DNA from: Crambe crambe
Lineage: Eukaryota > Porifera > Demospongiae > Poecilosclerida > Crambeidae
DNA: 64,000 bases
Reading direction: 5' to 3'
NCBI GenBank assembly: GCA_963924555.1
Contig: OZ004584.1
Coordinates: 8,439,753 to 8,503,752, forward strand
Within the stretch, counting starts at the first letter, position 1. The number at the start of each line of letters is the position of its first letter. This document shows positions 1-60,500 of this stretch, piece after piece. The notes below the pieces were generated by a model that worked only from the letters and a program-made list of their open reading frames with translations, did no database searches and had not been told where the DNA came from. The translations under genes were made by a program, and so were the position numbers.

Positions 1-3000
1 TACCTCGTAGTACTTTGGTTGGGAGATGAGGGTGATGGTGTCACGATCAGCTCCAAATCGAAACTGCACTCGGTTCTTCTTGATGCCTTCTTCAATCAAC
101 TTGAGTGAGCTCTGCCCGACTAAGTTGGCAATGGCAGCAGGAAAGACCCCAAGGGGTACAAAACCACATTCGTATCGAATCAAGATAGAGGCAGGAAGGA
201 GTTGGTTGGAATCAATCTTTTGAAAGTCACTCAGTTCTTCACTGCTCACATTCTCAAGGATGCAGGGCATCAGGTAGACCTTTGAACTCTGTGAAGGATC
301 AGACTGGACTATGGGAGCTATGATGTTGAGATGCTCCAGCAGCTTCACCAGTTGGAGTAAGGGAATGTGATCTTTCTTGATGGCCGCCAAAGAATCTTGT
401 AAATTTTTCACTTCAAAGTACTGGAAGTCTTCTTCACGTTCTTCAGGACTTTTTCCTTTTGTCCAGATATGACGATACTTGAAAAGTGCTGCTGCTATGT
501 CTTTGAAGGGGATGAAGTCCAAACGTTCGTCTCTTGTTTCTTGCTCCTTTAAAGCTTCCTTCACATCTTCAAATGAAAACTGTCCAGTTTTCCGGAATTT
601 TTCCCGAGCTGCCCTCTTCACTTTGCCGAATTTGAAAGTGTTGACGATCATGTTGGTCACACTGTCGAATACGATTTGTACGTCACAAATGACAGTGTCT
701 TCAAGCTCAGGAACGTCAGGGAAGTACATCAAGACTCCAGCGTAATGGTGAAGGAACCACAAGGCCACTTTAGTTTCCTTTGGGGACATGCCAAACTGCC
801 AAGCTAGTTCCATGCAGTACTCCAGGCTCAGCATTCTCAGCACTTGTTTGCGAAGACAGAGACTGAATATGAGCCAAGCTGCTGGAATGGGGATCTTCTT
901 GAAGTGGTGCCGAATGTGATCCTGAAGGAATTTGTGAATGGAATCCACCTCTTCCTTACCTCCTGTCTTGTTGTCGACTGCAAGGACCAACTGATCCTTC
1001 TCGGCAAACTCAATGAGACCTTCTTTATAGAAGCTAGTGTTCGTGATGGTACTTTTCAGCTCATCGTCGAATTTCTTGATCTCTTCTTTGCTCACCTTGT
1101 CTTTGTGAGTAGCGACTATGAAAGCTACTGAATTGGATGATGGCTGAACAAACTTGGCTGCTGGATTGAGGTCAGAGATGTCTCCACCTAAAGTGTTATC
1201 AGGACAAGTGCGACAGCAAGCAACGGCAGACAGGGCTTGGAGTATCATCTCCTCCACGGTGTACGTCGATTCCACCGGTATGGTGGACTCACCTGTCGAT
1301 GGATCCAGGTACGATATGCTATAGCGACTCTTGAGATCGTCAATGAGTTTGCAGAAGATCAGGTACAGGGAAGGACCCATTACGAGAGCTGGTAGCATGT
1401 CCATGAACTCTGGCTGGCCTCCAGTGTCTTCCATCTTGACGAGAGCAGTGTATTTGAGTGTATACTTGATCACCTCCCAATCCTTGGAAGCCATTGCCTT
1501 CGTCAACATGTCGTTTATGTCGAATGCAAAGTTGATATCGGCTGGACCGTTATAAGCTGATTCTTCCTGCTGGGGCTCAACCTCTACTGGTAGCCCTGAC
1601 TCCTCTGCATCTTCCATGGGGACATTTGGTTGAATAGAGCCGACACTCGTGCTTGCAGAATTGAACTGAGACTGGGTCTCCGTTGCCTGAGGTGGTGGGC
1701 CCTCTGGCGTGATTAAGAGTGATCTATCCACTGATGGTTCAGACACTACAACGGAGTTCGTTTCATAGAAGAACTGGAGGAGCATGCGTGCTTCGTCTGA
1801 AAGACCTTGGAGAGATGACCAATTCTCTGAAGATATCACAGCTGTACTGCTAGAGAGACTTCTAATGATGACTTGTCTGGATTCGATTGTTCCCGTGCTA
1901 GGCTGCTCTGCCTCTCCAGCTGAGCTGATGTCTGCGATCTCTCCCGTCAGGCGGCGACGCATTGAAGTCTTTCCCAAACGAGGAGCACCAACAAAGAGGA
2001 ACTTGAGGAAATACATGTCTAAAGACCCTCGTGTGGCAAGAATCTGTCGGTAGGCAGCAATGTAACCTCCAGTGGGACCTGACCAATAGAAAATAGTCAT
2101 CATTAATATTAATATGTCCATCACATGGTACAACCTCCTGACCCTTAGCAACCTTGATTGATTCAGAGGAAGTGGGCAGACCACAGTGGTCTATTTTGGA
2201 CATAAATTATCAGCCATGCTCCACTCACCAGAGAGGTAGTCCTCAATCTGCACACTCAGTTCTTTCAGCTCAAGTATTTTCAATATACCAAACAATGACG
2301 TCCAGGTTGGAGGAAGACGACTCTTTCCTGGAGATTGCCATTGGCTGATCACAATTTCAACAGCTTGAGCAGGATCAGACACAAGACGATGTTCCAAAGT
2401 GATCCCAGCAGCTTGTATCAGTTTAGTGTAGACCTTTGCCAGTGACGTGACCACCTGGATTCCTACTCCCTCCAGTCTAGAGAGAGCACTCATGCTGAAT
2501 TGACTCTCGGGGTTGAATGGGGTCACTGGGAATGGGATAAATTACAAAGCAGTTAAATTGGGACCTCCAGAGTATTTAAGAATTGTTGGGATGGACCATT
2601 TTGATTTTGTGATACTATTACATCATCATGACATAATCAATTATTTGGGCAGAATTCAGTAGTCACCTTTCAATGATGCCTTGAACACCCTGTTACTCCA
2701 TTTAGATGCACCCCATCCCCCTAACACCACCAATTCTCCTGTGGGGAGGACAATAGTAGCAGTGTTACGTAACCCTATAGGCAAATTCCCCACATGTAAC
2801 CAGGAGAGGGTGTGGGGTGAGTAGGCACAGATCGTAGAGGAAAGGGTACTAAAAAGATATCCTCCAGTAGATATCAGCTGATTTGCAAATGATGAAGGAG
2901 AGGAAAAGCCGAGATAAATCTGTAACTCACTCCACAAACCACTGGAGTGTGACATTTCTTGAGTATGGTCTTCATTAAGGAGTGACTCCAACTTGCAGTG

Positions 3001-5875
3001 AAATACTGAGAGACCCTGTTCATAGCCACCCATCAAATACAGTCTTCCTTTATGGAGAGTGGATTTCAAACGACTGCATGCTTTAGGTAGAGGTTGAACA
3101 GACGACCACTCATTGTCTTTGAGTATCTCCACTACATTCACATAAAATACTCCACTTGCTGTACCACCTGATACCACCAAACATTCGGGACTTCCAGTGT
3201 TCAATGCTGATGAATAATAACGACTAGTTGGCATTGGTGGCAGTGATAGTTGCCAGTTCATTTCTCCTTTAAGTGTCCATAGTTTATTTGTAGCCATACG
3301 AGTATCAGGTTCCATTCCACCAACAAGCACCACCTGAGAGTGGTAGGTGGTGAGGCCATAATGACAGGTGGGTGTGGTCACTTGTGACCATGAGTTCAAA
3401 TCAGTGGAGGAGATAAACAGTGAGGCATCACTTTCCCATGATGATGTGTACCCTCCTATATATATCTTGTCCTGCAGTAGCACACATTGGGCATCATGCA
3501 TACCCACTGGTAGTGGAGTGCACTCTGCCCAGTCAAGTGAGGCTAGGGGATGGAGGATGTTAACCTGTAGAGGTATAGTAGAGAATAGTTACCTTGCATA
3601 ACAGGGGGTCGTCTTTGACATAATGGAGGGACAGAATAGAGGGCCTGCACATGGAGGTGTGTCACATATAAGGGGCGTGGTTGTCTGCCATCTTAGAGAG
3701 CAGAGAATGTATAGACTCATTGCAGTTTCAGTAACATTATTGGACTTGTCTGTATATTACCAGCACACCACCACCATGTTGGAGGTAGTCTCCTGCCCCT
3801 TCTCCATGAGACTACAGTGGAACCTCCCAATAATGGACACTCCAAATAAAGCACACCTCTCTGTAAAGGACACTTGTTGCTGTCCCACCATAGTACTTTG
3901 TGTATTAAATGACCTCTGAATAAAGGTCACCTCTCTATAAAGGACAATTTCAACTTGTCTGTTATTTGGAGACTCCACTGTATGTTGGAGGTACAAGGTA
4001 GAGGAGAAATTGTACTAGTTTACATGTTAGGAGGTGGTTAAGTGTTTGTTTTCATAATTATTGCAACTAGTTGATTGTAAGAACTTATAATGCTGTTAGT
4101 TATCCTGTTCTTTGCAAGGGAGAAAACAAGTCTATAGCAATAGCAGTGTACTTTCTTCATCATCTTAGATCCACCCCTCTAGTCATAGGTGTAGTGCTGG
4201 GTCAGACAGGTCAGATTGATATAAGCCAACACATCTTTCACATCCTGATGGTCTTGAATGGTCCACTAATGTGGTTTACATTACTTCAGTCCTAGTGAAT
4301 TAGTTTACCGACACCTCCCAGATTCTTCATACCACTCAGGTTACAGGTATCATGGGGGAGAGCCTGACTAGCGAGACTATTTGTCTGACCAATGCACAAA
4401 ATACTGCTATACCTCTGTAGTGTGTGACAGTTTTATGAATGGCACATTAATGTGGAATATGAGAGGAATAAAGGAGGATAGCACAACTGATGGAGAGATA
4501 AGTTCATGGTGGACAACCATGCCATCTTACAAGCAATCATTCAAGCATAGCACTGGCAAGTTGTCAGAAGAAAGAGCAGAGGCTACGGTTTTGATAATGG
4601 CATTACTAGTAATTCCTCTTTGGTGGATCTTTCACAAGAATGGTCGCCATCTATGTGACACGCCCCCTGCTCCTCGTGCAGGTTCTCCATTCTTCATGTA
4701 CTGTGTGTGACACACACCTAAACACTGAGATGGCGAATTTTTAACCCTTGAGACAGACACTGGCACAAGTAGGTGACAGGCTTGGGTAAACTGAGCTTAC
4801 TGAGAGCTTAGTCTTGGGTACGAGGCTAACTGAGAGCTCTGCTAATAAATGAAGTAATGCCTCTTGCTGTTTATATCTGTTGTCAGCTTTAGCAAGGGTC
4901 AAGGGTCACATTCCTTGGATTGTAGTGCCACCAGATCAAACCAGGACTTACTTTATTCTATCTGGACCCCACCCTTTGTCGGCTGTGGATGGACCTTCAG
5001 TTGAAGTCTACCCTTGAAAAAGTGTTAGTGAGAATAGGGAAGTGCTCAGTGTTGTTGAGGAGAGACTTGTGATTGATGTGCATTTGACCAGCATGTGAAG
5101 TTTGTAGTGGTACAAGATGAAGCTGCTACAAATGTTAAAGGAACTGCTACAAACATTCAAGATGGTTTCTCAGAGGATTGAATTTACCAGAAAGCTTGAA
5201 ATTGACAGCCACTTATTATCTCATTGTTGTAGGAGAGTCTATTGTGGACTAGTGAGATATATAATTCATTCTAGTGCAGTCTTGGATCTTGTCAACTAGT
5301 CTGGCCCAGCTTTTCTTTTTTTGGGGGAGGGGGAAGAAAAGTGGTCTGGGAGCTCTAGCATCAACTACTTGTGATGCCCGAGTTTTCTCTCAAATAAACG
5401 TGTGTTGAATAATTTTCCGAAGCCAGTCGGTAGAATTGTGAACACATTGCCCTTGTAAATCGCTGATACAACTTCCAGCTGTTCAGGCTTCAGGCCAGAT
5501 ATTCCTAGCTCTTCAAGCACAGCTCTCAGTGACTTCTCCATAGTTCTGGAATGAGTTGTGAGTGTGTCTCGCCAACATTATACTACTTCACGTGACTGAA
5601 TAGAGCAATCTGATTGGCATGCAACTATAGCTGCGTGCACGGGCATTACAAGTAGTTGATGCTAGAGCCACCAGACCATTTTTCTTCCCCATCCTCCCAA
5701 AAGAAGAAAAGCTGGGCTGGTGACACCAGACTACTTGTCCACCTCCCATCTGCCACTGTTTACCCATCTATGTTCATGCAAGGTGGGATGTAATTTACTG
5801 CCCACACACACATCCAGGAAGTTAAGTTTGGATGGCCTCATCTAGTACAAGTCATACCTTCTCCTGTCCCTCCAT
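1..5875 (-). CDS. G1: Kelch - death-like - Roc/COR GTPase gene (3' end off window)
   Basis: Exons read on the minus strand: first coding exon 5858-5875 (inferred), Kelch 2667-3564, death-like 2229-2525, GTPase 1-2078 running off the left edge. All junctions keep frame (0, 1, 1). The Kelch exon has six strand ends of the IYIGG / VVLVGG type, as expected for a six-bladed propeller. The GTPase exon has a P-loop GAPRLGKT, a G3 motif DTGGQPEF and a G4 motif ATHKDKV, followed by a COR-like region. It belongs to the longer 'type B' GTPase shared with G7, with an insertion of about 60 residues in the COR region; its last 300 bases resemble the other subtype. A role as an intracellular recognition/death-signalling protein is inferred from the domains. 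The 5' end is weak: the promoter block of the sister genes is missing and an extra piece of Kelch sequence lies at 5886-6000. Confidence 0.75.
3565..5298 (-). other. 5' intron of G1
   Basis: This stretch separates the Kelch exon from the presumed first exon. A possible upstream splice donor (TGCAAG/GTAACT on the minus strand, at 3592/3593) is conserved in all units. In G1 about 8 bases are missing just upstream of it relative to the sisters, so it is probably non-coding. The stretch contains one MITE (3813-3982). An open frame of 109 codons at 4381-4710 (+) has no recognisable domain and no conserved counterpart, so I do not call it a gene. Confidence 0.5.
3813..3982. mobile_element. MITE, TACAGTGGA-ended
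   Basis: The ends read TACAGTGGAACCTCC and, inverted, TACAGTGGAGTCTCC, so the terminal inverted repeats are about 25 bases, imperfect, and include a likely TA target duplication. The element is about 170 bp with no coding capacity. Copies lie at the same place in the sister units, so insertion predates the gene duplications. Confidence 0.75.
5299..5730. mobile_element. TIR element carrying a RecQ-like helicase fragment
   Basis: Two inverted arms of about 80-90 bases (5299-5379 and 5635-5728, sharing AGCATCAACTACTTGT and CCCAGCTTTTCTT) flank a spacer. On the minus strand, 5400-5530 reads LGISGLKPEQLEVVSAIYKGN followed by LPTGFGK. These resemble the Q motif and Walker A motif of RecQ-family helicases. 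A 2-base insertion near the initiator ATG at 5541-5543 breaks the frame, and the frame stops soon after the Walker motif. This looks like a non-autonomous element carrying a captured or residual helicase N-terminus. Confidence 0.6.
5858..5875 (-). CDS. G1 first coding exon (short)
   Basis: ATG followed by five codons (MEGQEK) and a GTATG donor, ending in phase 0, which matches the phase-0 start of the Kelch exon. The same 18-nt exon is found upstream of the Kelch exon in G3, G5, G6 and G7. In G1 the conserved sequence upstream of it stops at about 5886, where a Kelch-exon fragment begins. Confidence 0.55.
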
Positions 5876-5885
5876 CAGACTCTCA

Positions 5886-11441: not shown

Positions 11442-14426
11442 TCATCTTAATTCCTCACATTTCTTCCTCAACACTTCACAGATGGCCTCAGCAGACTGAG
11501 TGTGTCCAGCCTTCACACACACCTCCAGCAAGTTCCCATAGGTGGCTGCATGGCCACACCTCTCCTTCCACCTCCTCAGTGCCTCTCGTCTATTAGTCAA
11601 ACAGATCAGTGATTAGGTTCAAACTAGACTCTCAGAGATTTTCCCTTGTGCAAGGGGAGGGGGAGGGGAGAGACGTTAAATCGTATCCTTATTTCTCAGA
11701 AAAAAGGGTTTGTTGAGAATAATCTAAGCATTGGGAGGACAGGTCTTCCCCCACCATAATAACAATTTCCATGAGAACACTCACCTCTGCAGTGCAGGTT
11801 CATTCTGATACTTCTTCTTGATGTCACTAATGTCAGTGGCAGTCAGTCCCAGAGGAGCAGAGAGCTTCTCCTCCCAGTCCAGTGAGTGGTCCGCTATCTC
11901 ATTCAGGTCCCTGTCCACTCCCCCATGGCCCCAGTCCAACTGCCGCTCCAGGTGGGGGCATGCATCCACTGGGAGACGTGAGAGGTAGGATTGGCAATCT
12001 GGTCCTGTGGCATGTAGTTACAGTGTAGAGTGGATCCATGGAGGACAATGGGACTCACACTAACCTGAGGGGAGAACTGGGTCAGGTCCATTCATACCAC
12101 TTCCATCTCCAGTCATGGGCTACAGTAGTACAATGAGATGAGTAAGTGATACAATATGATCAACCTCTCACCTCTCCAAACCACACTAAGTGCTTCTCCT
12201 TCATTTCCACAGGCTGAGGATCTTTTATGTCCAACAGACAGTGCATTAGGTGAGGAGAGGTCTCACCACCCTTCACGATGCACAGATGGTCCATCTCAGG
12301 GTGCGTGGGACACTTGAAGGACACATTGTGCTCCATGCAAGAAGCATAGTTTGTTCTTGAGGTGACTGTTTGAAGAGAAGACTCTACAATCTTTCGTACT
12401 TCAACACAAACTTCATGCAGTGGGGTTTTAGCGCTCAGAAGTCGAGTGATTCGTACTTCATAGTGTTTTGGTCGGGAGATGAGGGTGACCAGATCAGCAT
12501 CACATCCATAACGAAACTGGACTCGATTCTTCTTGATTCCTCGTTGGATCAAGGTAAGTGAGCTGTGGCCGACAAGGTTGGCTGCTGCAGCTGGGAAGAT
12601 GCCAAGTGGTACAAAACCACACTTGTATAGGATCAGGACAGAAGCTGACAAGAGAGGGTTTGAGTCATGTCCTTGGAATGTGTCCAGTTCTTCACTTGTT
12701 ACATTCTGAAGGACACAAGGCATCAGATAGGTCACCTCTGAACTCTTAGTCTGAGAAGAACTGCAGGGATAGGACTGAGTGATGGGAGCAATGATGTTGA
12801 GGTGTTCCAGCAGCTTCACCAGTTGCTCCAGGGGTATGTAGTCTCCTGAAACAAGACTTCTTCTGATGTCCTCCAGGGAGAACTGTCCTGTTTCCTTGAA
12901 TCTCTCAGAAGCAGCCACACCCATTCGACCGAACTTAAATGCATTGATGATCAGATTGGTCACACTATCGAAAACTATTTGAATGTTACAAATGACTGTT
13001 TCCTTTAACTCAGGTAGGTTGGGGAAGTACATCAGGACTCCGGCATGGTGGTGGAGGAACCACAGAGCTGTCTTTGTATCAGCAGCTGTCATGCCAAGCC
13101 TCTCAGCAAGTTCCAGACAACTATGCAGACTGGCTATTCTCTTGTCTCTCTTTCGCAGGCAGAGACTCAGCATCAGCCATGCAGCTGGGATGCGAAGCTT
13201 CTTGAAGTGCTTCTGCAAACCTTTCTCCAGAAAGGTACGAATCTCTCTGACTTCATCTGCTCCCCCCGTCATGTTGTTTATGGGGAGTACCATCCTGCCT
13301 TCAGAGGAAAACTGAACCAGATCGTCCCTGAAAAAATCGGTAGATCGAATCGTACGTTGTAATTTTTCATCGAATCTGTCGATCTCCTCTTCAGATACTT
13401 TATCTTTATGTGTCCCGATTATGTATGCAACAGATTTGGAAGAAGCTAAAAGCTCGTCCAATTTGGAATCAGAGGCTTCTTCGTTACTCTCTTGTGAGCT
13501 GTATGACTTGAAGCAAGCAATACTGGATAGAGCTGAGAGAAGGACTTCTTCCACAGTATAGGTGGACTCGACTGGCAAGGTGGACTCGCCTGATGGACTG
13601 AGGAAGGAGATAGTGTAACTTTTCTGGAGGTCACCGATCAACTTACAAAATAAAAGGTAAAGGCCAGGACCGATGGTGAGTGCTGGGAGCATATCCATCA
13701 GCTCGGGATGGCCCCCTGTGTCTTCCATGTTCAGTAGTGCTGCATCCTTGAAGAGATGCTTCACATGACTCCAATTCTTGGTACTCATGGCATTACGGAA
13801 CAAGTCGGCCATTTCCTCCACATCAGGAAATGAAGTTCTACCTCTTACCATCCGTGGAGGAGGTTTGGAGAAAAGATCAGACTTTTTCTCAGAAGAAGGT
13901 ACCTCTGGTGACTTAAGATTGGCATTGGAAAGCTTGGACCTATGCACTTCTTGAGTAGAAGGTGTTATATCATGAATGCTGTCCTGCACGTCAGAGACTA
14001 GAGTACTGTCGCCTCTTTTAAACAGTGGAGGAGGGTCAGATAAAAGAACAAACTTTTTTTCTCTCCTTTTTTTCTTTTTTTCTGGTGACTTGGTCCTATG
14101 TTGAAAAATCTGCTGGTAGAATAACTCCAGGAACATGTGTGCCTCATCTGTGAGGTTTTCAGCCACTAACCAATCTGTTTGCGTCACCATGGCTGTAGTG
14201 CAGGAGAGGTTCTTGATGATCACTCGTCCTGACTCAACTGCACCCGTACTAGGCTGCTCTGCCTCTCCAGCTGAAGCGATGTCTATGATCTCTCCAGTCA
14301 GGCGGCGACGGGCTGTTGTCTTTCCCAAACGAGGACCTCCAACGAAAGCCATTTTGACAAAGAACATTTCTATGGATTCTTTTGTGGCAAGGATTTGGCG
14401 GTACGCATTCAAATACTCAGATTTGC
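11442..14426 (-). CDS. G2: Roc/COR GTPase plus C-terminal death domain, no Kelch
   Basis: Exons: GTPase 12172-14426 (phase 1 to 0, 751 codons), linker 12065-12119, death domain part 1 11785-12004, part 2 11442-11589 ending in TGA. The GTPase has GGPRLGKT, DTGGHPEL and GTHKDKV motifs; a region of about 130 residues between P-loop and G3 carries a Lys-rich insertion (EKKKKRREKK) absent in the sisters. The death domain reads ADHSLDWEEKL ... LRRWKER ... AEAICEVL. There is no Kelch or death-like exon upstream: sequence matching the intron before the GTPase exon runs straight into the last exon of G3 at about 14755. G2 is therefore either an orphan or an alternative second GTPase-death block of G3. 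Confidence 0.8.
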
Positions 14427-14755
14427 CTGATGGAATAAGAGTTCAGTTTCTAACACAGATGTGTTGTATGAGAAGAGTACAGTTCTTTTAAATAATGCAC
14501 ACCTGGCTGATCACACAGTTAGGACTTTAGAGGGTCTGGAAATGCATGATTTATTCCACAAACCTAACGAGGTTTAATGAACTTATCTTTTAAGGGGGTG
14601 GGGGAATTAGCCTCCCCTGGAACCCTGCTATATAATTTATATGGGTCAAACATAGTAAAGAGTGTATTCCAAAGAGTCTATTTTTATTTATCTCCCCAAC
14701 AACTTTTCTAGATGAATGTCTATGATACCCACACAACACACTTTTGTACGAACTC
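14427..14755 (-). other. fused intron / 3' flank between G2 and G3
   Basis: The sequence is collinear with the intron between the death-like and GTPase exons of G3 (17728-18129) until about 14755. There it switches to the 3' end of the G3 death-domain exon. This marks the duplication breakpoint that removed the Kelch and death-like exons from G2. Confidence 0.7.
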
Positions 14756-17700
14756 TCATCTTAAATCCTCACATTTCTTCCTCAACACTTCACAGATGGC
14801 CTCAGCAGACTGAGTGTGTCCAGCCTTCACACACACCTCCAGCAAGTTCCCATAGGTGGCTGCAAGGCCATGCCTCTCCTTCCACCTCCTCAGTGCCTCT
14901 CGTCTATTAGTCAAACAGATCAGTGATACACACTAGACTCAGTTAGAGGGGGAGATTTGTCCTCATGCAACTGGGGAGGTTTCTCGGGTGAAATGTTTGT
15001 TGGGACCATCAATCCAAACATTGGGAGGATATCTTGGGCTTCCCCCACCATAGCCATGAGAAGCCAGAGAACACTCACCTCTGCAGTGCAGGTTCATTCT
15101 GATACTTCTTCTTGATGTCACTAATGTCAGTGGCAGTCAGTCCCAGAGGAGCAGAGAGCTTCTCCTCCCAGTCCAGTGAGTGGTCCGCTATCTCATTCAG
15201 GTCCTTGTCCACTCCCCCATGGCCCCAGTCCAACTGCCGCTCCAAGTGGGGGCGTGCATCCACTGGGAGACGTGAGAGGTAGGATTGGTAATCTGGTCCT
15301 GTGGCATGTAGTTACAGTGTAAAGTGGATCCATGGAGGACAATGGGACTCACACTAACCTGAGGGGAGAACTGGGTCAGGTCCATTCACACCACTTCCAT
15401 CTCCAGTCATGGGCTACAGTAGTACAATGTGAACTAAAGTCATGCACATTGCATATATTAAGGGATATTTCTCTATATAATACACACCATACCATATGCG
15501 CATTCAGGGCAAGGTACTTGCTACAATTTACTTACCTTCCCAAACCACACCAAATGTTGGCTTTGCATTTTCACTGGTTTACGATTTTCAGGATCCCTGA
15601 GGCAGTCCATTATGCGAGGATGAGTCTCTTCACTGTCCACAACGCATAAGTGGTCCCTTCCAGGGTGAGAGGGACATTCAAAGGAGAGTTGGTAGCTCAC
15701 AGAAAAGGCATAGTTCATACGAGAGGTGACTGTTTTTAGTGTATGCTCAACAATCTCTCGGATGTCATTACACACCTCATGTGTTGGGGTCTCGGCAAAC
15801 GTTTCTCTCTTGATGGATACCTCGTAGTACTTTGGTTGGGAGATGAGGGTGATGGTGTCACGATCAGCTCCAAATCGAAACTGCACTCTGTTCTTCTTGA
15901 TACCCTTTTCGATCAACTTGAGTTTGTGTAAGCTCTGCCCGACTAAGTTGGCAATGGTGGCAGGAAAGACCCCAAGGGGTACAAAACCACATTCGTATCG
16001 AATCAAGAGAGAGGCAGGAAGGAGTTGGTTGGAACCATTCTTTCGAAAGTCACACAGTTCTTCATTGCTCACATTCTCAAGGACACAGGGCATTAGGTAG
16101 ATCTTTGAACTCTGTGAAGGACTGGGATCAGACTGGACTATGGGAGCTATGATGTTGAGGTATTCCAACAGCTTCACCAGTTGCTCCAGGGGTATGTAAT
16201 CTCCTGAAATACCGACAATACTTCTTCTGATGTCCTCCAGGGAGAACTGTCCCGTTTTCCTAAACTTCTCAGAGGCAGCAACACCCATTCGACCGAACTT
16301 AAATGCATTGATGATCAGATTGGTCACACTATCGAAAACAATTTGAATGTTACAAATAACTGTTTCCTTTAACTCAGGTAGGTTGGGGAAGTACATCAGG
16401 ACTCCGGCATGGTGGTGGAGGAACCACAGAGCTGTCTTTGTATCAGCAGCTGTCATGCCAAGCCTCTCAGCAAGTTGCAAGCAACTCTGCAGACTGGTTA
16501 TTCTCTTGTCTCTCTTTCGCAGGCAGAGACTCAGCATCAGCCATGCAGCTGGGATGCGAAGCTTCCTAAAGTGCTTCTGCAAACCTTTCTCCAGAAAGGT
16601 ACGAATCTCTCTGACTTCATCTGCTCCCCCCGTCAAGTTGTTTATGGGGAGTACCATCCTACCTTCAGAGGAAAACTGGACCAGATCGTCCCTGAAGAAA
16701 TCGGTAGATCGAATTGTACGTTGCAGTTTTTGATCGAATTTGTTGATCTCCTCTTCAGACACTTTATCTTTATGTGTCCCGATTATGTATGCAACAGATT
16801 TGGAAGAAGAAGCTAAAAGCTCGTCCAATTTGGAATCAGAGGCCCCTTTGTTACTCTCTTGTGAGCTGTATGACTTGAAGCAAGAAATACTGGATAGAGC
16901 TGAGAGAAGGACTTCTTCCACAGTATAGGTGGACTCGACCGGCAAGGTGGACTCACCCGATGGACTGAGGAAGGAGATAGTATAACTTTTCTGGAGGTCA
17001 TCGATCAACTTACAAAATAAAAGGTAAAGGGCAGGACCGATGGTGAGTGCTGGGAGCATGTCCATCAGCTCGGGATGGCCCCCTGTGTCTTCCATGTTCA
17101 GTAGTGCTGCATCTTTGAAGAGCTGCTTCATATGACTCCAATTCTTGGCACTCAAGGCATTACGAAACAAGTCAGCCATTTCCTTTACATCAGAGTGTAG
17201 AGTACTGCTATCTCGTTCAATCAGTGCAGGAGGGTCAGATAAAAAATCAGATTTTTTCTTAGAAGAAGGTACCTCTGGTGACTTAAGATTGGTATAGGAA
17301 AGCTTGGTCCTATGTATTTCTTGAGTAGAAGGTGTTTCATCATGAATGGTGGACCCATCACTCACACTTTCTTCATTGGAGTTGATACTGGATGTTTTCT
17401 GTTGAAAAATCTTCTCATAGAAGTACTGCAGGAACATGTGTGCCTCGTCCGTGAGGTCTTCGGCTACTAACCAATCTGTTTGTGTCACCATGGCTGTAGT
17501 GCAGGAGAGGTTCCTGATGATCACTCGTCCTGACTCAACTGCACCCGTACTAGGCTGCTCTGCCTCTCCAGCTGAAGTGATGTCTGTGATCTCTCCAGTC
17601 AGGCGGCGACGGGTCGTTGTCTTTCCCAAACGAGGACCTCCAACGAAAGCCATTTTGACAAAGAGCATTTCTATGGATTCTTGTGTGGCAAGGATTCGGC

Positions 17701-24058: not shown

Positions 24059-24140
24059 CTGGATGGTGTGAGTTGATGTAGTTGAGATTAAAGTGGACAT
24101 TCGTGACATGTGTAGATGACATGACCACTTGGAGACTCAC

Positions 24141-24275: not shown

Positions 24276-24316
24276 CTGTAGGAGATGATCACCACTAGAT
24301 ACATGCAATATCAAGG

Positions 24317-38496: not shown

Positions 38497-38747
38497 TTGA
38501 TTCACTTTCCAATGAGGTTCAACTCAGTTTGAATCATATTAATGAGACAGACTCACTTGTATGTGGGTGAGGACACTGTAGGAGAGAAGGGGCCCAGAAG
38601 CTCCTCCACTGACCGGCCAGCAGTGGTCAGCACCAGGCAGCTGCATCCCATCAGACTCATCCTGTAATGGCATAGACAAAATTAATGCATGCTCCTTCTG
38701 TGAGTACAAACAAACAAGTAAACCTGTTCAGAATACATACAGGCATT

Positions 38748-40764: not shown

Positions 40765-43700
40765 TCACTTATTCATGGTTGCTACAGGAGACAGACATCA
40801 GTAAACTACCCAGTAAACTAGCTAGTATAACACCTTACCTCTTGGGTGTGCTGTGGCTATCCTTTTGAACATTCCTCCATCAAGCTTCCTAACACCAGCT
40901 GCTAGTTGCCTCCAACTCGGTTTGCCATATTTGGCAGTGTTGTAATTCTGCTTCAACCACTCGGTAATGACATCAAACAGGCACCTGCTACAATTTCCAG
41001 AGTTATTCCTGCGGATGACCTCAATGGCACTGGTCTTCAGTCTGAGGTAAGTAGCAAGGGTGTCCCAACTGGCCGCCAAGTCCTCCACTTCATCCATCAC
41101 ATCTGCTATGTCTTCAGGATCTATTATCAATGCAACATTGACTCATTGTAAGTTTGAGGGAGATCTGATGACTCACCTAGTTCAGAATCATCTATCGTTT
41201 CAAGAACTTGTTTCCACTCGGTTCCATTGGTTGCTGGGAGTGGAGTAACATGAGAGTGGAGACCTAGAAATAATTAAGAATGAAATTATGTTGCAAGGAG
41301 ACAAGGAATTGTTTGCACTACCAGTACTGACCAGACTGAGGTGAGATAGGTCCACTTGTACCCTCTCCACTACTTTCAGTCAGAGGCTACAATGAAATAA
41401 GATATGCAATATGTTTACCAGTTATAACACGAGACTCATTATGAATATTGTAACGTCGGATTATCTTGGTCACTTTAGACTATATATCATGCTCACTAAG
41501 GTTCTCTACTCTATATAATGCACACCAAATCCTTACATCACGACTTCAGGGCAAAGTACTTGCTACAATTTACTTACTTTTCCAAACCAAACCAAATGCT
41601 GACTTTGCATATAAACTGGATCAGGTTCTTCGGGATTCTTGAGGCAGTCCATTATGTGAGGACAAGTCTCTTCACTGTCAACAACGCACAAGTGGTCTCT
41701 TCCAGGGTGGGAGGGACATTCAAAGGAGAGTTGGTAGCTCACAGAAAAGGCATAGTTCATATGAAAGGTGACTGTCTTCAGTGTATGCTCAATGATCTCT
41801 CTGATGGCATGACACACCTCGTGTGTTGGGGTCTTGGTGATCGGTAGTCTCTTGATGGATACCTCGTAGTACTTTGGTTGGGAGATGAGGGTGATGGTGT
41901 CACGATCAGCTCCGAATCGAAACTGCACTCGGTTCTTCTTGATGCCTTCCTTGATCAACTTGAGTTTGTGTGAGCTCTGCCCAACTAAGTTGGCAATGGT
42001 GGCAGGAAAGACCCCAAGGGGTACAAAACCACATTCGTATCGAATCAAGAGAGAGGCAGGAAGGAGTTGGTTGGAATCAAATTTTCGAAAGTCATTCAGT
42101 TCTTCACTGCTCACATTCTCAAGGACACAGGGCATCAGGTAGACCTTTGAACTCTGTGAAGGGTCAGACTGGACTATGGGAGCTATGATGTTGAGGTATT
42201 CCAGCAGCTTCACCAGTTGGCCCAGGGGTATATAATCTCCTGAAATACCAATAATACTTCCTCTGATATCTTCCAGGGAGAACTGTCCTGTTTTCCTAAA
42301 CCTCTCAGAGGCAGCCACGCCCATTCGACCGAACTTAAAAGCATTGATGATCAGATTGGTCACGCTATCAAAAACAATTTGAATGTTACAAATGACTGTT
42401 TCTTTTAACTCAGGTAGGTTGGGGAAGTACATCAGGACTCCGGCATGGTGGTGGAGGAACCACAGAGCTGTCTTTGTATCAGCAGCTGTCATGCCTAGCC
42501 TCTCAGCAAGTTGCAGGCAACTCTGCAGACTGGATATTCTCTTGTCTCTCTTTCGCAGGCAGAGACTCAGCATCAGCCATGCAGCTGGGATGCGAAGCTT
42601 CTTGAAGTGCTTCTGCAAACCTTTCTGGAGAAAGGTACGAATCTCTCTGATTTCGTCTGCTCCCCCCATCATGTTGTCTATGGGGAGTACCATCCTGCCT
42701 TCAGAGGAAAATTGGACCAGATCGTCCCTGAAGAAATCGGTAGATCGAATCGTACGTTGTAATTTTTCATCAAATTCGTCGATCTCCTCTTCAGACACTT
42801 TATCTTTATGTGTCCCGATTATGTATGCAACAGATTTAGAAGAAGCTAAAAGCTCGTCCAATTTGGAATCAGAGGCCCCTTCGTTACTCTCTTGTGAGCT
42901 GTATGACTTGAAGCAAGCAATACTGGATAGAACTGAGAGAAGGACTTCTTCCACAGTATAGGTGGACTCGACTGGCAAGGTGGACTCACCTGATGGACTG
43001 AGGAAGGAGATAGTGTAACTTTTCTGGAGGTCATCGATCAACTTACAAAATAAAAGGTAAGGACCGATGGCGAGTGCTGGGAGCATGTCCATCAGCTCGG
43101 GATGGCCCCCTGTGTCTTCCATGTTCAGTAGTGCTGCATCCTTGAAGAGCTGCTTCATATGACTCCAATTCTTGGCACTCATGGCACTACGGAACAAGTC
43201 GGCCATTTCCTCCACGTCAGAGAGTAGAGTACCACTACCTCTAAGTCTTTCCATCAGTGGTGGAGGGTTGGATAAATGATTAGACTTTTTCTCAGAAGAA
43301 GGTACCTCTGGTGACTTAAGATTGGTGTTGGAAAGTTCGGTCCTATGTATTTCTTGAGTAGAAGGTGTTTCATCATGAATGGTGGACCCATCACTCACAC
43401 TTTCTTCATTGGAGTTGATACTGGACGTTTTCTGTTGAAATATCTGCTGATAGAAGAACTGCAGGAACATGTGTGCCTCGTCTGTGAGGTTTTCAGCTGC
43501 TAACCAATCTGTTTGTGTCACCATGGCTGTAGTGCAGGAGAGGTTCCTGATGATCACTCGTCCTGACTCAACTGCACCCGTACTAGGCTGCTCTGCCTCT
43601 CCAGCTGAAGCGATGTCTGTGATCTCTCCAGTCAGGCGGCGACGGGTCGTTGTCTTTCCCAAACGAGGACCTCCAACGAAAGCCATTTTGACAAAGAGCA

Positions 43701-46700
43701 TTTCTATGGATTCTTGTGTAGCAAGGATTCGGCGGTATGCATTCAAGCAGTCAGTTTTGCCTGAGGGGATAAGAGAAATACATTCTAAAACAGATGTGCT
43801 ACAGCTCGAATGAGAAGAGTACTTTGAAGCAGTATTCTAAATAATGCACATCTGGCAGTGGGGGTGGGTGGGCCAGGGGGATTTACTTTCTCCCTTACTA
43901 GAACTTTGCCTCTCCATGGGACCTTGCTGTGTAGAGTGTATTCCAAAGGGTCGAGGTAAGAGATATTGTTTTCTAGATGAAGGTCTGGGAATTGGATGAT
44001 ACTTTGTATGGAATCTCTACTCACCAGTGAGGTAGTCTTCAATCTGCACACTCAGTTCAATCAGTTCAAGTTTCTTCAATACATTAAAGAGAGAAGTCCA
44101 GGTTGGAGGAAGACGACTCTTTCCTGGAGATTTCCATTGGCTGATCACAATTTCAACAGCTTTAGAACTATCAGACGGAAGTTGATGCCAGACAGTCCTG
44201 ATCCCAGCAGCTTGTATCAGTTTAGTGTGGACCTTTGCCAGTGACGTGACCACCTGGATTCCTACTCCCTCCAGTCTAGAGAGAGCACTCATGCTGAATC
44301 GACTCTCGGGGTTGAATGGGGTCACTGGGAATGGGATAAATCATAAATCAGTTAAATTGGGACCTCCAGAGTATTTAAGAATTGTTGGGATAGACCATTT
44401 TGATCTTGTGATACTATTACATCATCATGACATAATCAATTATTTGGACAGAATTCAGTAGTCACCTTTCAATGATGCCTTGAACACCCTGTTACTCTTT
44501 CTAGATACACCCCATCCCCCTAACACCACCAATTCTCCTGTGGGGAGGACAATAGTAGCAGTTCTACGTGACTTTATAGGCACATTCCCCACATGTAACC
44601 AGGAGAGGGTGTGGGGGGAGTAGGCACAGATCTCAGAGGAATGGACACCACTAAGCCATCCTCCAGTAGATATCAGCTGATTTGCAAATGATGAAGGAGA
44701 GGAAAGTTCTAGATGAGTCTGTAACTCACTCCACAAACCACTGGAGTGCGACATTTCTTGAGTATAGTTTTCATTAAGGAGTGACTCCAACTTGCAGTGA
44801 AATACTGAGGGACCCTGTTCATAGCCACCCATCAAATACAGTCTTCCTTTATGGAGAGTGGATTTCAAACAACTGCATGTTTTAGGTAGAGGTTGAACAG
44901 ACAACCACTCATTGTCTTTGAGTATCTCCACTACATTCATAAAACCCCCTTTAAAACCACCTGATACCACCAAACATTCGGGACTTCCAGTGTTCAATGC
45001 TGATGAATAAAGACGACTAGTTGGCATTGGTGGCAGTGATGGTTCCCAGTTCGTTCCTCCTTTAAGTGTCCATAGTTTATTTGTAGCCATATGAGTATCA
45101 GGTTCCTCTCCACCAACAAGCACCACCTGAGAGTGGTAGGTGGTGAGGCCATAAAAACGGGTGGGTGTGGTCACTTGTGACCATGAGTTCAAATCAGTGG
45201 AGGAGATAAACAGTGGGGCTTCACTTTCCCATGATGATGTGATCCCTCCTACATATATCTGGTCCTGCAGTAGCACACATTGGGCATCACACATACCCAC
45301 TTGTATTCGAGTGCACTTCACTGGTAGTGGAGTGCACTCTGCCCAGTCAAGTGAGGCTAGGGGGTGGAGGATGTCAACCTGTAGAGGTATAGTAGAGAAT
45401 AGTTACCTTGCACACATGCACAACAGGGGGTCGTCTTTGACATAATGGAGGGACAGAATAGAAGGCCTGCACATGGAGGTGTGTCACATAAAAGGGGCGT
45501 GGTTGTCTGCCATCTTAGATAGCAGAGAATGTATAGACTCATTGCAGTTTCAGTAACATTATTGGACTTGTCTGTATATTACCAGCACACCACCACCATG
45601 TTGGAGGTAGTCTCCTGCCCCTTCTCCATGAGACTACAGTGGAACCTCCCAATAATGGACACTCCAAATAAAGAGCACCTCTCGGTAAAGGACACTAATA
45701 ATTGTTGCTGTCCCACCATAGTACTTTGTGTATTAAATGACCTCTGAATACATTTAATGGTGCACTGTATGTAGTAACCCACCATGTCCACTTTTGTATG
45801 CCCTCAAAATTGTACAGACATCTTTGAAGTGACGTGCATGGTCACAGATGTGATTGTTACAGTCATTGGTTATATTTGACCTTGAAAGTTCACAGTGCAA
45901 TGTACGGTGCAATACAGATGTGTCAGGCTTTGGCATAATATGCTGGCATAATTTTGGGGTAGGTTCTAGCAGGTTTTAAATTTTGGTTACCGTATACGAG
46001 TTAATTTTGGCGGGAGTTTTATTTGGCGTTTATACCAAGGAAGGCTTTTGGCGGACATTTGTGTGGAAAAAGCTGGAATATGAGAGAGATAAAGGTAATT
46101 CTTATTAACTGATGAAGAGATTAGTACATGGCGGAAAACCATGCCCCTTTTATATGACACACCCCCTGCTCCTTGCACAGGCTCTCCATTCTTCAGAGCT
46201 GGATCCAGGGATGGTTGCAATCCTTCTTTTATTCCCAAGCTAGGCCTGTAGCTAAAATGGTGCATGTAGTGCCCCAGAATTTTTGACCACGCCCACTTAG
46301 CCTAGCCATGTCCATTTTTACTTGATTATTAATCTCGTGTTTCTGTTTGCCCTCAAAATTGTGTGCATTGCATTAGCTACAGCTACACTCAATCTCCAAG
46401 AGACATCTTTGAAGTGATGTTGGGCATGGTCACAGGTGTGATTGTTAAAGGGAATAAGAGTTAGTATGGCAGGGGTGGCACAACAGGTGCTGCTGATACG
46501 GTACCACTTTTATAACTGGTCAGGAAGAACCATAGCAGTTCTACAGTGCATGGACTACAGGCTTGCTATGTTAATTGGAAAATGCACAAGACAATAATAT
46601 CACTTACACACCCTCACTAAAGCTATGACAGTTTGTTTCATGTAAGAATAACAGACACAACATTTTGGAAATTTATTTTTCTTTCCCTTTCTTTAAAAAG

Positions 46701-51739: not shown

Positions 51740-51773
<34 letters not shown>

Positions 51774-54540: not shown

Positions 54541-54581
54541 CTGTAGGAGATGATCACCACTAGATACATGCAATATCAAGG

Positions 54582-57500
54582 TCATCTTAATTCCTCACAT
54601 TTCTTCCTCAACACTTCACAGATGGCCTCAGCAGACTGAGTGTGTCCAGCCTTCACACACACCTCCAGCAAGTTCCCATAGGTGGCTGCAAGACCACGCC
54701 TCTCCTTCCACCTCTTCAGTGCCTCTCGTCTATAGGTCAAAGAGATCTCAGTTATTCACACTGGACTCTCAGTTAGAGGGGGGATAACACATGAAACCAT
54801 GAAAGCCATAAAAGCCAAAAAAAAGAGAGTATCATTTCAAGTGTTTGACTTGAGGTCACACTAAGTACATGTGAAGTACAAAAACAAGACCACATTTTTT
54901 GGTTGGTGGGAGGGAATAAATAGAATCCTAATAAATTAACAAATTAAACCTCCTCTCAAAATAGTTGATCCTCACCCCAAAAAGAGGCAATACCCAGGCC
55001 TCACCTCTGCAGTGCAGGTTCATTCTGATACTTCTTCTTGATGTCACTAATGTCAGTGGCAGTCAGTCCCAGAGGAACAGAGAGCTTCTCCTCCCAGTCC
55101 AGTGAGTGGTCTGCTATCTCATTCAGGTCCCTGTCCACTCCCCCATGGCCCCAGTCCAACTGCAACTCCAAGTGGGGGCGTGCATCTACTGGGAGACGTG
55201 AGAGGTAGGATTGGTAATCTGGTCCTGTGACATGTAGTTGCAATGTGGAGTGGATCCATGGAGGACAATGGGACTCACACTAACCTGAGGGGAGAACTGG
55301 GTCAGGTCCATTCACACCACTTCCATCTCCAGTCATGGGCTACAGTAGTACAATGAGAACTAAAGTCATGCACATTGCATATATTAAGGGACATTAATAC
55401 ACTACTCTATATAATGCACACCATACCATATGCACACTTCACGGCAAGGTACTTGCTACAATTTACTTACCTTTCCAAACCACACTAAATGCTGACTTTG
55501 CATATAAACTGGTTCAGGATTTTCGGGATTTTTAAGGCAAACCATGATGTGAGGGGAAGTCTCTCCACTGTCCACAACGCACAAGTGGTCTCTTCCAGGG
55601 TGAGAGGGACACTCGAAGGAGAGTTGGTAGCTCACAGAAAAGGCGTAGTTCATGCGAGAGGTGACTGTCTTCAGTGCACACTCAATGATCTCTCGGATGG
55701 CATGACACACCTCGTGTGTTGGGGTCTTGGTGATCGGTAGTCTCTTGATGGATACCTCATAGTACTTTGGTTGGGAGATGAGGGTGATGGTGTCATAATC
55801 AGTTCCAAATCGAAACTGCACTCTGTTCTTCTTGATGCCTTCTTCGATCAATTTGAATGAGCTCTGCCCGACTAAGTTGGCAATGGTGGCAGGAAAGACC
55901 CCAAGGGGTACAAAACCACATTCGTATCGAATCAAGAGAGAGGCTGGAAGGAGTTGGTTGGAATCATATTTTCGAAAGTCACTCAGTCCTTCACTGCTCA
56001 TATTCTCAAGGATGCAGGGCATCAGGTAGACCTTTGAACTCTGTGAAGGGTCAGACTGGACTATGGGAGCTATCATGTTGAGATATTCCAGCAGCTTCAC
56101 CAGTTGGAGTAAGGGAATGTGATCTTTCTTGATGGCCGCCAAAGAATCTTGCAACTCTTTCACTTCAAAGTACTTGATGTCTTCAGCACGTTCACTAGGA
56201 CTTTTCCCTTTTGTCCAGATATGACGATACTTGAAAAGTGCTGCTGCTATGTCTTTGAAGGGGATGAAGTCCAAACGTTCGTCTCTCGTTTCTTGTTCCT
56301 TTAAAGCTTCCTTCACATCTTCAAATGAAAACTGTCCAGTTTTCTGGAATTTTTCCTGAGCTGCCCTCTTCACTTTGCCATATTTGAATGTGTTGACAAT
56401 CATGTTGGTCACACTGTCGAATACGATTTGTACATCACAAATGACAGTGTCTTCCAGCTCAGGAACGTCAGGGAAGTACATCAAGACTCCAGCGTAGTGG
56501 TGCAGGAACCACAAGGCCACTTTAGTCTCCTTTGGGGACATGCCAAACTGCCAAGCTAGTTCCATGCAGTACTCCAGGCTCAGCATTCTCAGCACTTGTT
56601 TGCGAAGACAGAGACTGAACATGAGCCAAGCTGCTGGAATGGGGATCTTCTTGAAGTGGTGCCGAATGCGATCCTGAAGGAATTTGCGAATGGAATCCAC
56701 CTCTTCCTTACCTCCTGTCTTGTTGTCGACTGCAAGGACCAACTGATCCTCCTCGGCAAACTCAACGAGACCTTCTTTATAGAAGCTAGTATTCGTGATG
56801 GTACTTTTCAGCTCATTGTCAAATTTCTTGATCTCTTCTTTGCTCACCTTGTCTTTGTGAGTAGCGACTATGAAAGCTACTGAATTGGATGATGGCTGAA
56901 CCAACTTGGCTGCTGGATTGAGGTCAGAGATGTCTCCACCTAAAGTGTTGTCAGGACAAGTGCGACAGCAAGCAACGGCAGACAGGGCTTGGAGTATCAT
57001 CTCCTCCACGGTGTATGTCGATTCCACTGGTATGGTGGACTCACCTGTCGATGGATCCAGGCACGATATGCTATAGCGACTCTTGAGATCGTCGATGAGT
57101 TTGCAGAAGATCAGGTACAGGGAAGGACCCATTACGAGAGCTGGTAGCATGTCCATGAACTCTGGCTGACCTCCAGTGTCTTCCATCTTGATGAGAGCAG
57201 TGTATTTGAGCGTATACTTGATCACCTCCCAATCCTTGGAAGCCATTGCCTTCGTCAACATGTCGTTCATGTCGAATGCAAAGTTGATATCAGCTGGACC
57301 GTTATAAACTGATTCTTCCTGCTGGGGCTCAACCTCTACTGGTGGCTCTGACTCCTCTGCATCTTCCATGGGGACGATTGATTGAGTAGAGCCGACACTC
57401 GTGCTTGCAGAATTGAACCTAGACTGGGTCTCCATTGCCTGAGGTGGTGGGCCCTCTGGCGTGATTAAGAGTGATCTATCCACTGATGGTTCAGATGCTA

Positions 57501-60500
57501 CAATGGAGTTTGTTTCAAAGAAGAACTGGAGGAGCATGCGTGCTTCGTCTGAAAGACCTTGGAGAGATGACCAATTCTCTGCAGATATCACAGCAGTACT
57601 GCTAGAGAGACTTCTAATGATGACTTGTCTGGATTCGACCGTTCCCGTGCTAGGCTGCTCTGCCTCTCCAGCTGAGCTGATGTCTGCAATCTCTCCCGTC
57701 AGGCGGCGACGCATCGAAGTCTTTCCCAAACGAGGAGCACCAACAAAGAGGAACTTGAGGAAATACATGTCTAAAGACCCTCGTGTGGCAAGAATCTGTC
57801 GGTAGGCAGCAATGTAACCTCCAGTGGGACCTGACCAATAGAAAATAGTCATCATTAATATTAATATGTCCATCACATGGTACAACCTCCCGACCCTTAG
57901 CAACCTTGATTGATTCAGAGGAAGTGGGCAGACCACGGTGGTCTATTTTGGACATAAATTATCAGCCATGCTCCACTCACCAGAGAGGTAGTCCTCAATC
58001 TGCACACTCAGTTCTTTCAGCTCAAGTATTTTCAATATACCAAACAATGACGTCCAGGTTGGAGGAAGATGACTCTTTCCTGGAGATTCCCATTGGCTGA
58101 TCACAATTTCAACAGCTTGAGCAGGATCAGACACAAGACGATGCTCCAAAGTGATTCCAACAGCTTGTATCAGTTCAGTGTGGACCTTTGCCAGTGACGT
58201 GACCACCTGGATTCCTACTCCCTCCAGTCTAGAGAGAGCACTCATGCTGAATTGACTCTCGGGGTTGAATGGGGTCACTGGAATGGGATAAATTACAAAG
58301 CAGTTAAATTGGGACCTCCAGAGTATTTAAGAATTGTTGGGATGGACCATTTTGATCTTGTGATACTATTACATCATCATGACATAATCAATTATTTGGG
58401 CAGAATTCAGTAGTCACCTTTCAACGATGCCTTGAACACCCTCTTACTCGATCCAGATGCACCCCATCCCCCTAATACCACCAATTCTCCTGTGGGGAGG
58501 ACAATAGTAGCAGTGCTACTCAACCCTATAGGAAAATTCCCCACGTGTAACCAGGAGAGGGTGTGGGGGGAGTAGGCACAGATCTCAGAGGAACGGGCGC
58601 CCCCTCCAGTAGATATCAGCTGATTTGCAAATGATGAAGGAGAGGAAAATTCGAGATGAATCTGTAACTCACTCCACAAACCAATGGAGTGTGACATTTC
58701 TTGAGTATGGTCTTCATTAAGGAGTGACTCCAACTTGCAGTGAAATACTGAGGGACCCTGTCTCCAGCCACCCATCAAATACAGTCTTCCTTTATGGAGA
58801 GTGGATTTAAAACTACTGCATGCTTCAGGTAGAGGTTGAACAGATGACCACTCATTGTCTTTGAGTATCTCCACTACATTCACTTCATCCCCTCCACTTA
58901 CTCTACCACCTGATACCACCAAACATTCGGGACTTCCAGTGTTCAGTGCTGATGATGAATAGCGACTAGTTGGCATTGGTGGCAGTGATGGTTGCCAGTT
59001 CGTTTCTCCTTTAAGTGTCCATAGTTTATTTGTAGCCATATCAGTATCAGGTTCTTCTCCACCAACAAGCACCACCTGAGAGTGGTAGGTGGCGAGGCCA
59101 TAATAACGGGTGGGTGTGGTCACTTGTGACCATGAGTTCAAATCAGTGGAGGAGATAAACAGTAAGGCATCACTTTCCCATGATGATGTGTACCCTCCGA
59201 CATATATCTTGTCCTGCAGTAGCACACATTGGGCATAATACATACCCACTGGTAGTCGAGTGCACTCTGCCCAGTCAAGTGAGGCTAGGGGGTGGAGGAT
59301 GTCAACCTGTAGAGGTATAGTAGAGAATAGTTACCTTGCACACATGCACAACCTCCATTTTTTTTTGAATATCATTAAATTAGAGCATTCCAAAGTGTGT
59401 CAGAGCTTGCTAAGTAGTGAATCTGCCACTATGTATCTTTAGCACAGTTCCTCAAGTGTGCACTAAACATTTAGTGCACATAAAAAGTGTGCTTTAAAGC
59501 ACTCTATTCAGAGGATCTGATTGGTCAAAAGTCATGTGACCAGCACTAATACTCTCTTTCTGCCATCCAAAGCGTGTATTTAAAATGGTACATGGTCAAA
59601 AATTTTCTGGTGCACTACAGTGAGCTACAGGGAACAAATGGGGATAGCCTCGTACCCAGGCCCACTTTTTTCGCGGGGCAGTGGAAAAGCAAAGGTCCTG
59701 GTATAAGTTGCATGCACATGCGCTCCATCCCCCAGATTCGCTATACTTTCAGGCACGTCCGTTATACGAATCGTAATAAACATTACATCATCGTAATCTG
59801 AGTCAGCATGCAGTGCAGCTCTATAGCTAGCTAGATAGAGACTGTTCTGTCGTTTTGCTATTTCTCCACTAGATTCAACTCACTCCAGCGTTCTGTGCAA
59901 GCTGTTTATGAAAGAAGTTATTCGCTACCAACTGGTTAGTCTTAATAAGTCTTGGCTTGAGAGAGACAGTGCTGTTCTTGTGTGTTAGTTTATTTCACTG
60001 ATGTGGATAAGGTCTGGAGCCAGATCTTGCTAGCTAGCTTTAAGCTGATTGAGTGCGTGCGTGCTACATACGTTTTTATGATTACATTATGAAATTTTAC
60101 GTATTATTTTTCATGCGCATACAACTTATACCAGGCCCTTCGCTTTTCCATTGCCCCGCGAAAAAAATGGGCCTGGGTACGAGGTGGAGGTACTCTCTTG
60201 CCCCTTCTCCAGTGATGGACACTCCAAATAAAGCACACCTCTCTGTAAGGACACTTGTTGCTGTCCCACCATAGTACTTTGTGTATTGAATGACCTCTGA
60301 ATAAAGGTCACCTCTCTGTAAAGGACAATTTCAACTTGTCTGTTATTTGGAGACTCCACTGTATGTTGGAGGTACAAGGTAGAGGAGAAATTGTACTAGT
60401 TTACATGTTAGGAGGTGGTTAAGTGTTTGCTTTCATAATTATTGCAACTAGTTGATTGTAAGAACTTATAATGCTGTTAGTTATCCTGTTCTTTGCAAGG

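Follow-up and report, generated by a model that had tools for sequence, protein, structure and literature searches.

A tandem family of Kelch-propeller genes in the sponge Crambe crambe with diversified face loops, a candidate recognition repertoire

What keeps the loops of otherwise nearly identical Kelch propellers so different from one another? The question is raised by a stretch of 64,000 nucleotides from the sponge Crambe crambe (C6:8439753-8503752 in an assembly of 143 Mb; hereafter the window), in which five Kelch exons lie on the minus strand, each with a reading frame open end to end. An initial annotation of the window had proposed that the propellers vary at ligand-face loops within an almost invariant framework, as a diversifying recognition repertoire would, and that they are coupled to death domains and a GTPase. 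The proposal of a diversifying repertoire is supported as far as sequence goes, the ratio of nonsynonymous to synonymous change (dN/dS, omega) on the loop face exceeding 1 by three approaches, and we consider it likely that these genes form a multigene family of receptors with a Kelch sensor, a GTPase switch and death-fold signalling, whose face loops have been diversified by selection. The five Kelch exons are as follows.

58418..59306, minus strand: Kelch exon G7, an internal exon encoding a six-bladed propeller (open frame, splice signals, Kelch Pfam matches)
44466..45378, minus strand: Kelch exon G6 (open frame, splice signals, Kelch Pfam matches)
32902..33796, minus strand: Kelch exon G5 (open frame, splice signals, Kelch Pfam matches)
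18579..19482, minus strand: Kelch exon G3 (open frame, splice signals, Kelch Pfam matches)
2667..3564, minus strand: Kelch exon G1 (open frame, splice signals, Kelch Pfam matches)

Each of the five is bounded by the same splice signals (acceptor ctctacag followed by GTT, donor GAAAG followed by gtgact) and is matched by Pfam Kelch families (5/5); identity to the first Kelch exon is 81–88%, and six conserved GG pairs, the GG ending strand b, correspond to six Kelch repeats. An exon upstream of Kelch must exist, yet none was found. Compared with the whole assembly, the G7 exon has at least 31 long matches at ≥71% identity, a lower bound. Most of these (24 of 31) lie within 283 kb at C6:8.39-8.68 Mb, spaced 8.7–18.0 kb apart; the remaining close copies comprise one at 8.17 Mb, five at 3.16–3.30 Mb and one on C12. 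Less similar relatives (45–54% identity) are scattered over the assembly, and further Kelch clusters occur on C13, C12, C5, C9, C3 and C14. The selection alignment holds 30 of the 31 close copies, the other (L052; one stop, 71%) being excluded, as the 45–54% relatives (L039-L051) were from every selection count. Just two pairs among the 30 copies are protein-identical, L029/L030 (one base apart) and L032/L033 (zero bases apart), and assembly duplication was therefore rejected as a cause of the pattern; the site-model, blade-wise, fourfold-site, profile, shuffle/simulation and recombination-index runs left out one or both of the duplicates. The two pairs lie at C6:8404890, 8484210, 8429261 and 8578407, their members 79 and 149 kb apart, a picture of recent duplication or conversion.

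The loop strings quoted for the five exons in the initial annotation proved correct on re-reading, and the near-invariant framework with variable loops that it described extends to the family: amino-acid identity averages 0.556 at the face versus 0.943 in the framework, and changes cluster before the strand and after the GG, 41 of the 42 columns with at least five residue types (30 copies) being face-loop columns. The face comprises the loops before strand A (DA) and after the GG (BC), 95 of 322 classified columns, the other classes being the strands and the opposite loops (AB, CD); these class borders were drawn from Kelch motif geometry after the alignment was seen. A fixed rule, also set after alignment and left unadjusted, takes the 8 residues following the GG and, counted from its second G, positions −20 to −13. 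In each of the main, C13 and C12 families it takes up one false GG, and blade 1 of C12 escapes it; both faults dilute the contrast. The 30 copies carry 28 different face strings.

The measure on which the proposal had been staked, dN/dS at the loop codons, is well above 1 by counting, by site models and in each blade alone. Pairwise dN/dS over the 30 copies was 2.61 (1.86–3.68) at the face, 0.43 (0.30–0.63) in the strands and 0.59 (0.27–1.20) in the opposite loops AB/CD; the fixed GG rule, with in-frame stops (at most one per stretch) skipped in its codon alignments, gave 2.32 (1.60–3.18) for the loops versus 0.56 and 0.62 for the other classes. The difference between face and rest was reached by none of 2000 label shuffles and none of 303 circular mask shifts (28 copies). 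Neutral simulations read with the same counter returned omega 0.67–0.85, so the counting method is conservative, and alignment error was rejected, since the gap-free face columns (62 columns, judged on 26 rows) keep an omega of 2.63. Site models, run with the authors' own code on one tree, favored M2a over M1a (twice the log-likelihood difference, 2dlnL, 891) and placed 39 of 300 codons at P ≥ 0.95, 36 of them inside the fixed DA/BC windows; in an earlier fit, 38 of 40 selected codons were face codons, and although M0 had stuck at its start value there, refitting M1a and M2a gave the same outcome. Because single-tree models can be misled by recombination, the six blades were fitted separately, each with a tree of its own: omega at the face was 4.1–8.7, every blade rejecting omega = 1 at p < 1e-8, and 0.41–0.97 in the rest. 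The claim is carried by these blade-wise results and by counting rather than by the single-tree site models. In G7, the sites with posterior ≥0.95 for omega > 1 that fall in the hypervariable loops are as follows.

59235..59249, minus strand: DA loop of blade 1 (G29, Y31, Y32)
59163..59192, minus strand: BC loop of blade 1 (Y47, S49, W51, D54, A55)
59100..59108, minus strand: DA loop of blade 2 (R75)
59031..59057, minus strand: BC loop of blade 2 (E92, P94, D97, A99)
58956..58967, minus strand: DA loop of blade 3 (S125)
58881..58904, minus strand: BC loop of blade 3, length-variable (R143, V144, G147, D148, E149)
58806..58823, minus strand: DA loop of blade 4, the CSxLKS site (S173)
58749..58766, minus strand: BC loop of blade 4 (W189, R190, P193)
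58638..58658, minus strand: DA loop of blade 5 (E227, F228)
58587..58601, minus strand: BC loop of blade 5, length-variable (G244, A245, R246)
58515..58529, minus strand: DA loop of blade 6 (G269, S271, S272)
58446..58466, minus strand: BC loop of blade 6 (W289, G290, A291, G293, S294)

Arg makes up 12% of residues at the 38 selected face sites versus 1% in the framework, and Tyr, Asp and Glu are also abundant there. Strand position V44 of G7, beside a BC loop, is also under selection, and a blade-4 insert of 13 columns is variable as well, with omega about 1 and one selected site. In published Kelch structures, substrates are bound at the bottom of the propeller, where the BC and DA loops lie, and the AB and CD loops are at the top (PMC6650413, PMC6720452). 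The variable sites lie on DA/BC loops, not AB/CD, and would hence share one face of the propeller, a placement by homology that joins motif geometry to those structures.

Downstream of the Kelch exons lie large open frames with GTPase motifs and exons of death-domain type. On the minus strand the G7 unit runs Kelch (58418-59306), a short frame (57943-58326), the GTPase frame (55456-57942) and a death-like exon (55001-55279).

57943..58326, minus strand: G7 frame after Kelch, possible death-fold, delimited by stop codons and not by splice sites
55456..57942, minus strand: G7 GTPase frame (P-loop GAPRLGKTS, DTGG, THKD, COR-A-like region)
41563..43836, minus strand: G6 GTPase frame (motifs read, COR-A below Pfam cut-off)
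29842..32136, minus strand: G5 GTPase frame (motifs read, COR-A below Pfam cut-off)
15521..17755, minus strand: G3 GTPase frame (motifs read, COR-A below Pfam cut-off)
12160..14442, minus strand: G2 GTPase frame, open, with no Kelch exon directly upstream
1..2190, minus strand: G1 GTPase frame, open, cut by the window edge
26698..27242, minus strand: Death-domain exon pair (exons 26698-26886 and 27006-27242), whose joined frame matches PF00531 at E 8.9e-12
62878..63276, minus strand: Death-domain frame (PF00531, E 1e-6)

The G motifs of Roc (P-loop, DTGG, THKD) were read directly in the frames, which have no Roc Pfam match; one GTPase frame searched against the PDB with phmmer had no match up to E 0.01. 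Relatives of the GTPase frame are plentiful in public data (684 matches among 7999 scored candidates), and omega is 0.33 over six copies, one of them cut by the window edge. The G2 frame may be a degenerate gene or else belong to G3 as its second GTPase module. The frame after Kelch is present in 22 of the 30 loci and has omega 0.55 over the 21 used; its G7 copy is faintly similar to a Pfam Death open reading frame (ORF), E 0.008. PF00531 scores above cut-off in the joined exons and in 3 of 10 ORFs, which puts a Death domain in the gene unit, and the first exon type of the Death pair also stands directly downstream of GTPase frames G2, G3, G5 and G7. The coupling of propeller, GTPase and death domains proposed at the outset is suggested by exon order, splice signals and Pfam Death matches, and the three parts may form a single protein. 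A distinct unit at window 23769-26118 has Death and ZU5 frames above Pfam cut-off. Elsewhere in the window, two minisatellite-like arrays (38216-38518 and 51142-51507) share one repeat unit, whose frames read PPLPID or GGGSMGS; a helicase-like open frame (5365-5577, minus strand) and fragments resembling a sugar transporter (6700-8800, plus strand) were recognized by eye only.

The GTPase frames of the five Kelch units form two classes, 40% apart in their first half, and the Kelch strands differ by 2–4% regardless of class. G1 and G3 differ by 26–40% in the GTPase and by 2.4% in the Kelch strands; G3 and G5 differ by 1.0–1.8% in the GTPase frame, 4.4% in the Kelch strands and 33% at face bases, a contrast that may reflect whole-exon replacement by conversion as well as new substitutions. 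Distances correlate weakly between blades (r −0.01 to 0.47), and for 20 of 29 genes the six blades point to five or six different nearest neighbors. Of 2000 permutations, 1 gave a pairwise homoplasy index (PHI) as low as that observed or lower, both with all codons and with face codons. Sequence is exchanged between family members, the support from PHI coming from face sites since the test is negative on framework codons alone.

The pattern recurs, in graded form, beyond the main family. The clusters on C13 and C12, about 30% identical to it, gave 2dlnL of 284 and 156 in site models, with 24 of 24 and 12 of 14 selected sites, respectively, in the DA/BC windows; by counting, omega outside the loops is 0.34–0.47. 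On C5 the loop omega is 0.50 and the site-model signal weak (2dlnL 17; four sites, two in windows). The variability profile along the blade follows that of the main family with rho 0.72 for C13, 0.62 for C12 and 0.35 for C5, none of 43 circular shifts being as good in each case. A second genome holds at least 23 Kelch proteins on two contigs, found among 120 listed of 200 relatives and 42–48% identical to the main family; 11 of them, on one contig, are 76–86% alike, and best cross-contig matches reach 80–88%. Their blade entropy peaks at −17 to −15 and +1 to +7 from the GG, as in the main family (rho 0.67). The C3 family was set aside for site models, the GG rule fitting two blades only (loop omega 1.22, 0.87–1.72). 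Kelch exons of C12, C9 and C3 adjoin protein-kinase exons and those of C5 adjoin SH2 exons; for C13 no neighboring domain was found within the 10 kb read. The SH2-Kelch cluster at C5:1.41-1.65 Mb (L055) is a tandem one with near-ordinary loop evolution, and the tandem Kelch clusters at C12:712-813 kb, C9:200-210 kb and C3:7.22 Mb (L054, L058, L057) are possible kinase-coiled coil-Kelch families, their coiled-coil-like stretches recognized by eye.

Among known systems, the fungal NWD/HNWD proteins (HET-D, HET-E and HET-R of Podospora anserina) are likewise a beta-propeller family with a near-identical framework and exchange between members (PMC1805685). Amid that exchange, positive selection falls on codons 7 and 9 of the d-a loop and on codons 25 and 27 of the b-c turn (PMC1805685); selection on these two elements was also found in the Kelch family. 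In NWD proteins the propeller is coupled with a nucleotide-binding NACHT domain and an effector of cell death (PMC2873952), to which the GTPase and Death exons of the sponge would correspond. NWD proteins, however, carry WD40 units in near-identical tandem repeats within a gene, whereas the Kelch family has six unlike blades and varies between genes; NACHT and HET domains there contrast with a Roc-COR-like GTPase and Death domains here, and the function of NWD proteins is established, while that of the Kelch family is proposed from sequence. Neither NACHT nor leucine-rich repeats (LRR) appeared among the Pfam matches of the 20 frames scanned, whose whole genes are not known, and, so far as those frames show, the family would be neither NLR nor an NWD member (no NACHT/STAND switch; Kelch; Roc-COR-like). 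BTB-Kelch adaptors (KEAP1, KLHL20, KLHL12) share the fold and form their substrate surface from DA/BC loops (PMC6720452), but the 20 frames hold no BTB domain, the upstream exon not having been found. In Plasmodium K13, certain DA/BC positions are the most conserved of all (PMC6650413), whereas those loops are the least conserved in the Kelch family. Roco proteins (DAPK1, LRRK2, MASL1) may resemble it in having Roc-like G motifs followed by a COR-A-like region and, in DAPK1, a Death domain, and Kelch or WD40 flanks occur in the Roco family (PMC6320773); they differ in that the frames scanned here lack kinase and LRR, stand in tandem copies and accompany a propeller on which selection is diversifying. 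The NLRs of sponges (Dysidea avara, Amphimedon) also form large families of death-fold receptors but of NACHT-LRR build, and the available text of the Dysidea paper (PMC12909245) does not mention Kelch. In agreement with the initial annotation, no description of such a Kelch family in sponges was found in the open-access (PMC) literature.

The best reading is a germline-diversified repertoire that, by analogy, has its nearest working counterpart in the fungal HET-E/NWD receptors. One special case of it, in which the face is tuned to conspecific individuals rather than to microbes, is possible though on balance unlikely. It draws on HET-D and HET-E, the closest analogue, which serve allorecognition and are under selection in the same two sets of loops (PMC1805685), and on contig 626771, where none of four listed Kelch proteins exceeds 87% identity to the copies compared; that contig, however, could be the other haplotype, another individual or another locus, and allele-like pairs at single loci differ little. 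A less probable alternative would make the genes diversified adaptors for different endogenous host partners, in the manner of BTB-Kelch adaptors and with no non-self role. Kelch propellers do bind host substrates through DA/BC loops (PMC6720452), and two further Kelch clusters of the same genome have selected sites in the same windows. Specialized adaptors should nevertheless settle under purifying selection, where instead nearly every copy has its own face string; these strings differ even where the GTPase exons of two genes are almost the same, and on other contigs there are seven Kelch proteins that have no match above 89% among the copies compared. Other contigs also yield proteins that look like haplotype variants, and the same seven proteins (≤89%) hint at repertoires that may differ between haplotypes or individuals.

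Two explanations that dispense with selection for new residues were both tested and found unlikely. Very improbable is a mutational mechanism, by which the loops would be hot spots, either for mutation or for targeted cassette conversion, with no selection at the protein level. In its favor, silent divergence (pS) is about twice as high at the face (0.117) as in the strands (0.058), the blades are mosaic, and serine is encoded by AGY codons in 189 of 433 cases at the face versus 31 of 556 in the strands. This enrichment of AGY serines, which recalls the complementarity-determining regions of antibodies, may simply follow from variation. Hot spots, though, would lift silent and replacement changes together, and conversion reshuffles variants without generating a replacement excess; at fourfold sites matched for the first two bases the face is not significantly faster (0.071, 0.033–0.118) than the strands (0.047, 0.032–0.062), and diversity at codon positions 1/2/3 is 0.285/0.280/0.146 in the face and 0.034/0.022/0.044 in the strands, position 3 of the face being half as variable as positions 1 and 2. 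Relaxed constraint, by which the loops would tolerate any residue and drift while folding holds the strands, is the least credible of all: length variation is mainly loop-borne (34 of 53 gap-polymorphic columns are face) and the loops of the control cluster C5 are also somewhat more variable, but drift has a ceiling of omega 1 that the counted face value (2.6) exceeds and neutral simulations stay beneath, the opposite loops and the C5 loops lie at 0.59 (0.27–1.20) and 0.50, and replacement divergence at the face (0.27) is about ten times the 0.025 of the neighboring stretch of ~134 bases after the Kelch exon, mostly intron, whose mean difference is 2.5% over 22 loci.

Several observations weigh against a diversified receptor repertoire, or against parts of it. 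Recombination inflates the omega of the site models (9.5), and PHI restricted to framework codons shows no recombination signal (456 of 2000 permutations were as low as the observed value or lower). Counted loop averages are not clearly above 1 in C13 (1.36, 0.99–1.95) or C12 (1.02, 0.70–1.51), the control C5 also fits the profile weakly, its loops being somewhat variable even there, and the fit of the second genome is equalled by 1 of 43 circular shifts. Five allele-like pairs (truncated ends and indels excluded) have 7 of 15 substitutions at the face, not clearly above its share of sites. In all five GTPase frames scanned, COR-A stays under its cut-off of 35.3 bits, with 23.8–28.0 bits (E 2e-6 to 5e-5), and the frame directly after Kelch is without a Pfam match up to E 1.

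If a receptor repertoire, possibly serving immunity, is nonetheless the likely reading, the proteins would probably be intracellular, with the six-bladed Kelch propeller as ligand sensor and the Roc-COR-like GTPase as a switch that may work as in Roco or NLR proteins; the death-fold domains would recruit a cell-death or inflammatory effector. Purifying selection and exchange between copies, by gene conversion or unequal crossing-over, would keep the framework alike, while positive selection would diversify the twelve DA/BC loops and thereby give nearly every gene a different binding surface on the same chassis. The ligands would presumably be non-self proteins, whether microbial effectors or allotypic proteins of other individuals.

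Taken more widely, the case is evenly balanced that early-branching animals possess a germline-encoded, combinatorially exchanged Kelch recognition system, with tens of receptors per genome, wired to GTPase/death switches in one family and, in one sister cluster or more, situated close to protein-kinase exons, put to non-self or allorecognition use and independent of fungal NWD. If true, the fungal WD40 non-self receptors would have an animal equivalent in which the same pair of loop sets is selected, and Kelch propellers would join the scaffolds used for receptor diversification. Twelve named loops, strongly diversified by selection on a fold of known ligand geometry, make non-self discrimination in animals without antibodies, sponges included, directly testable.

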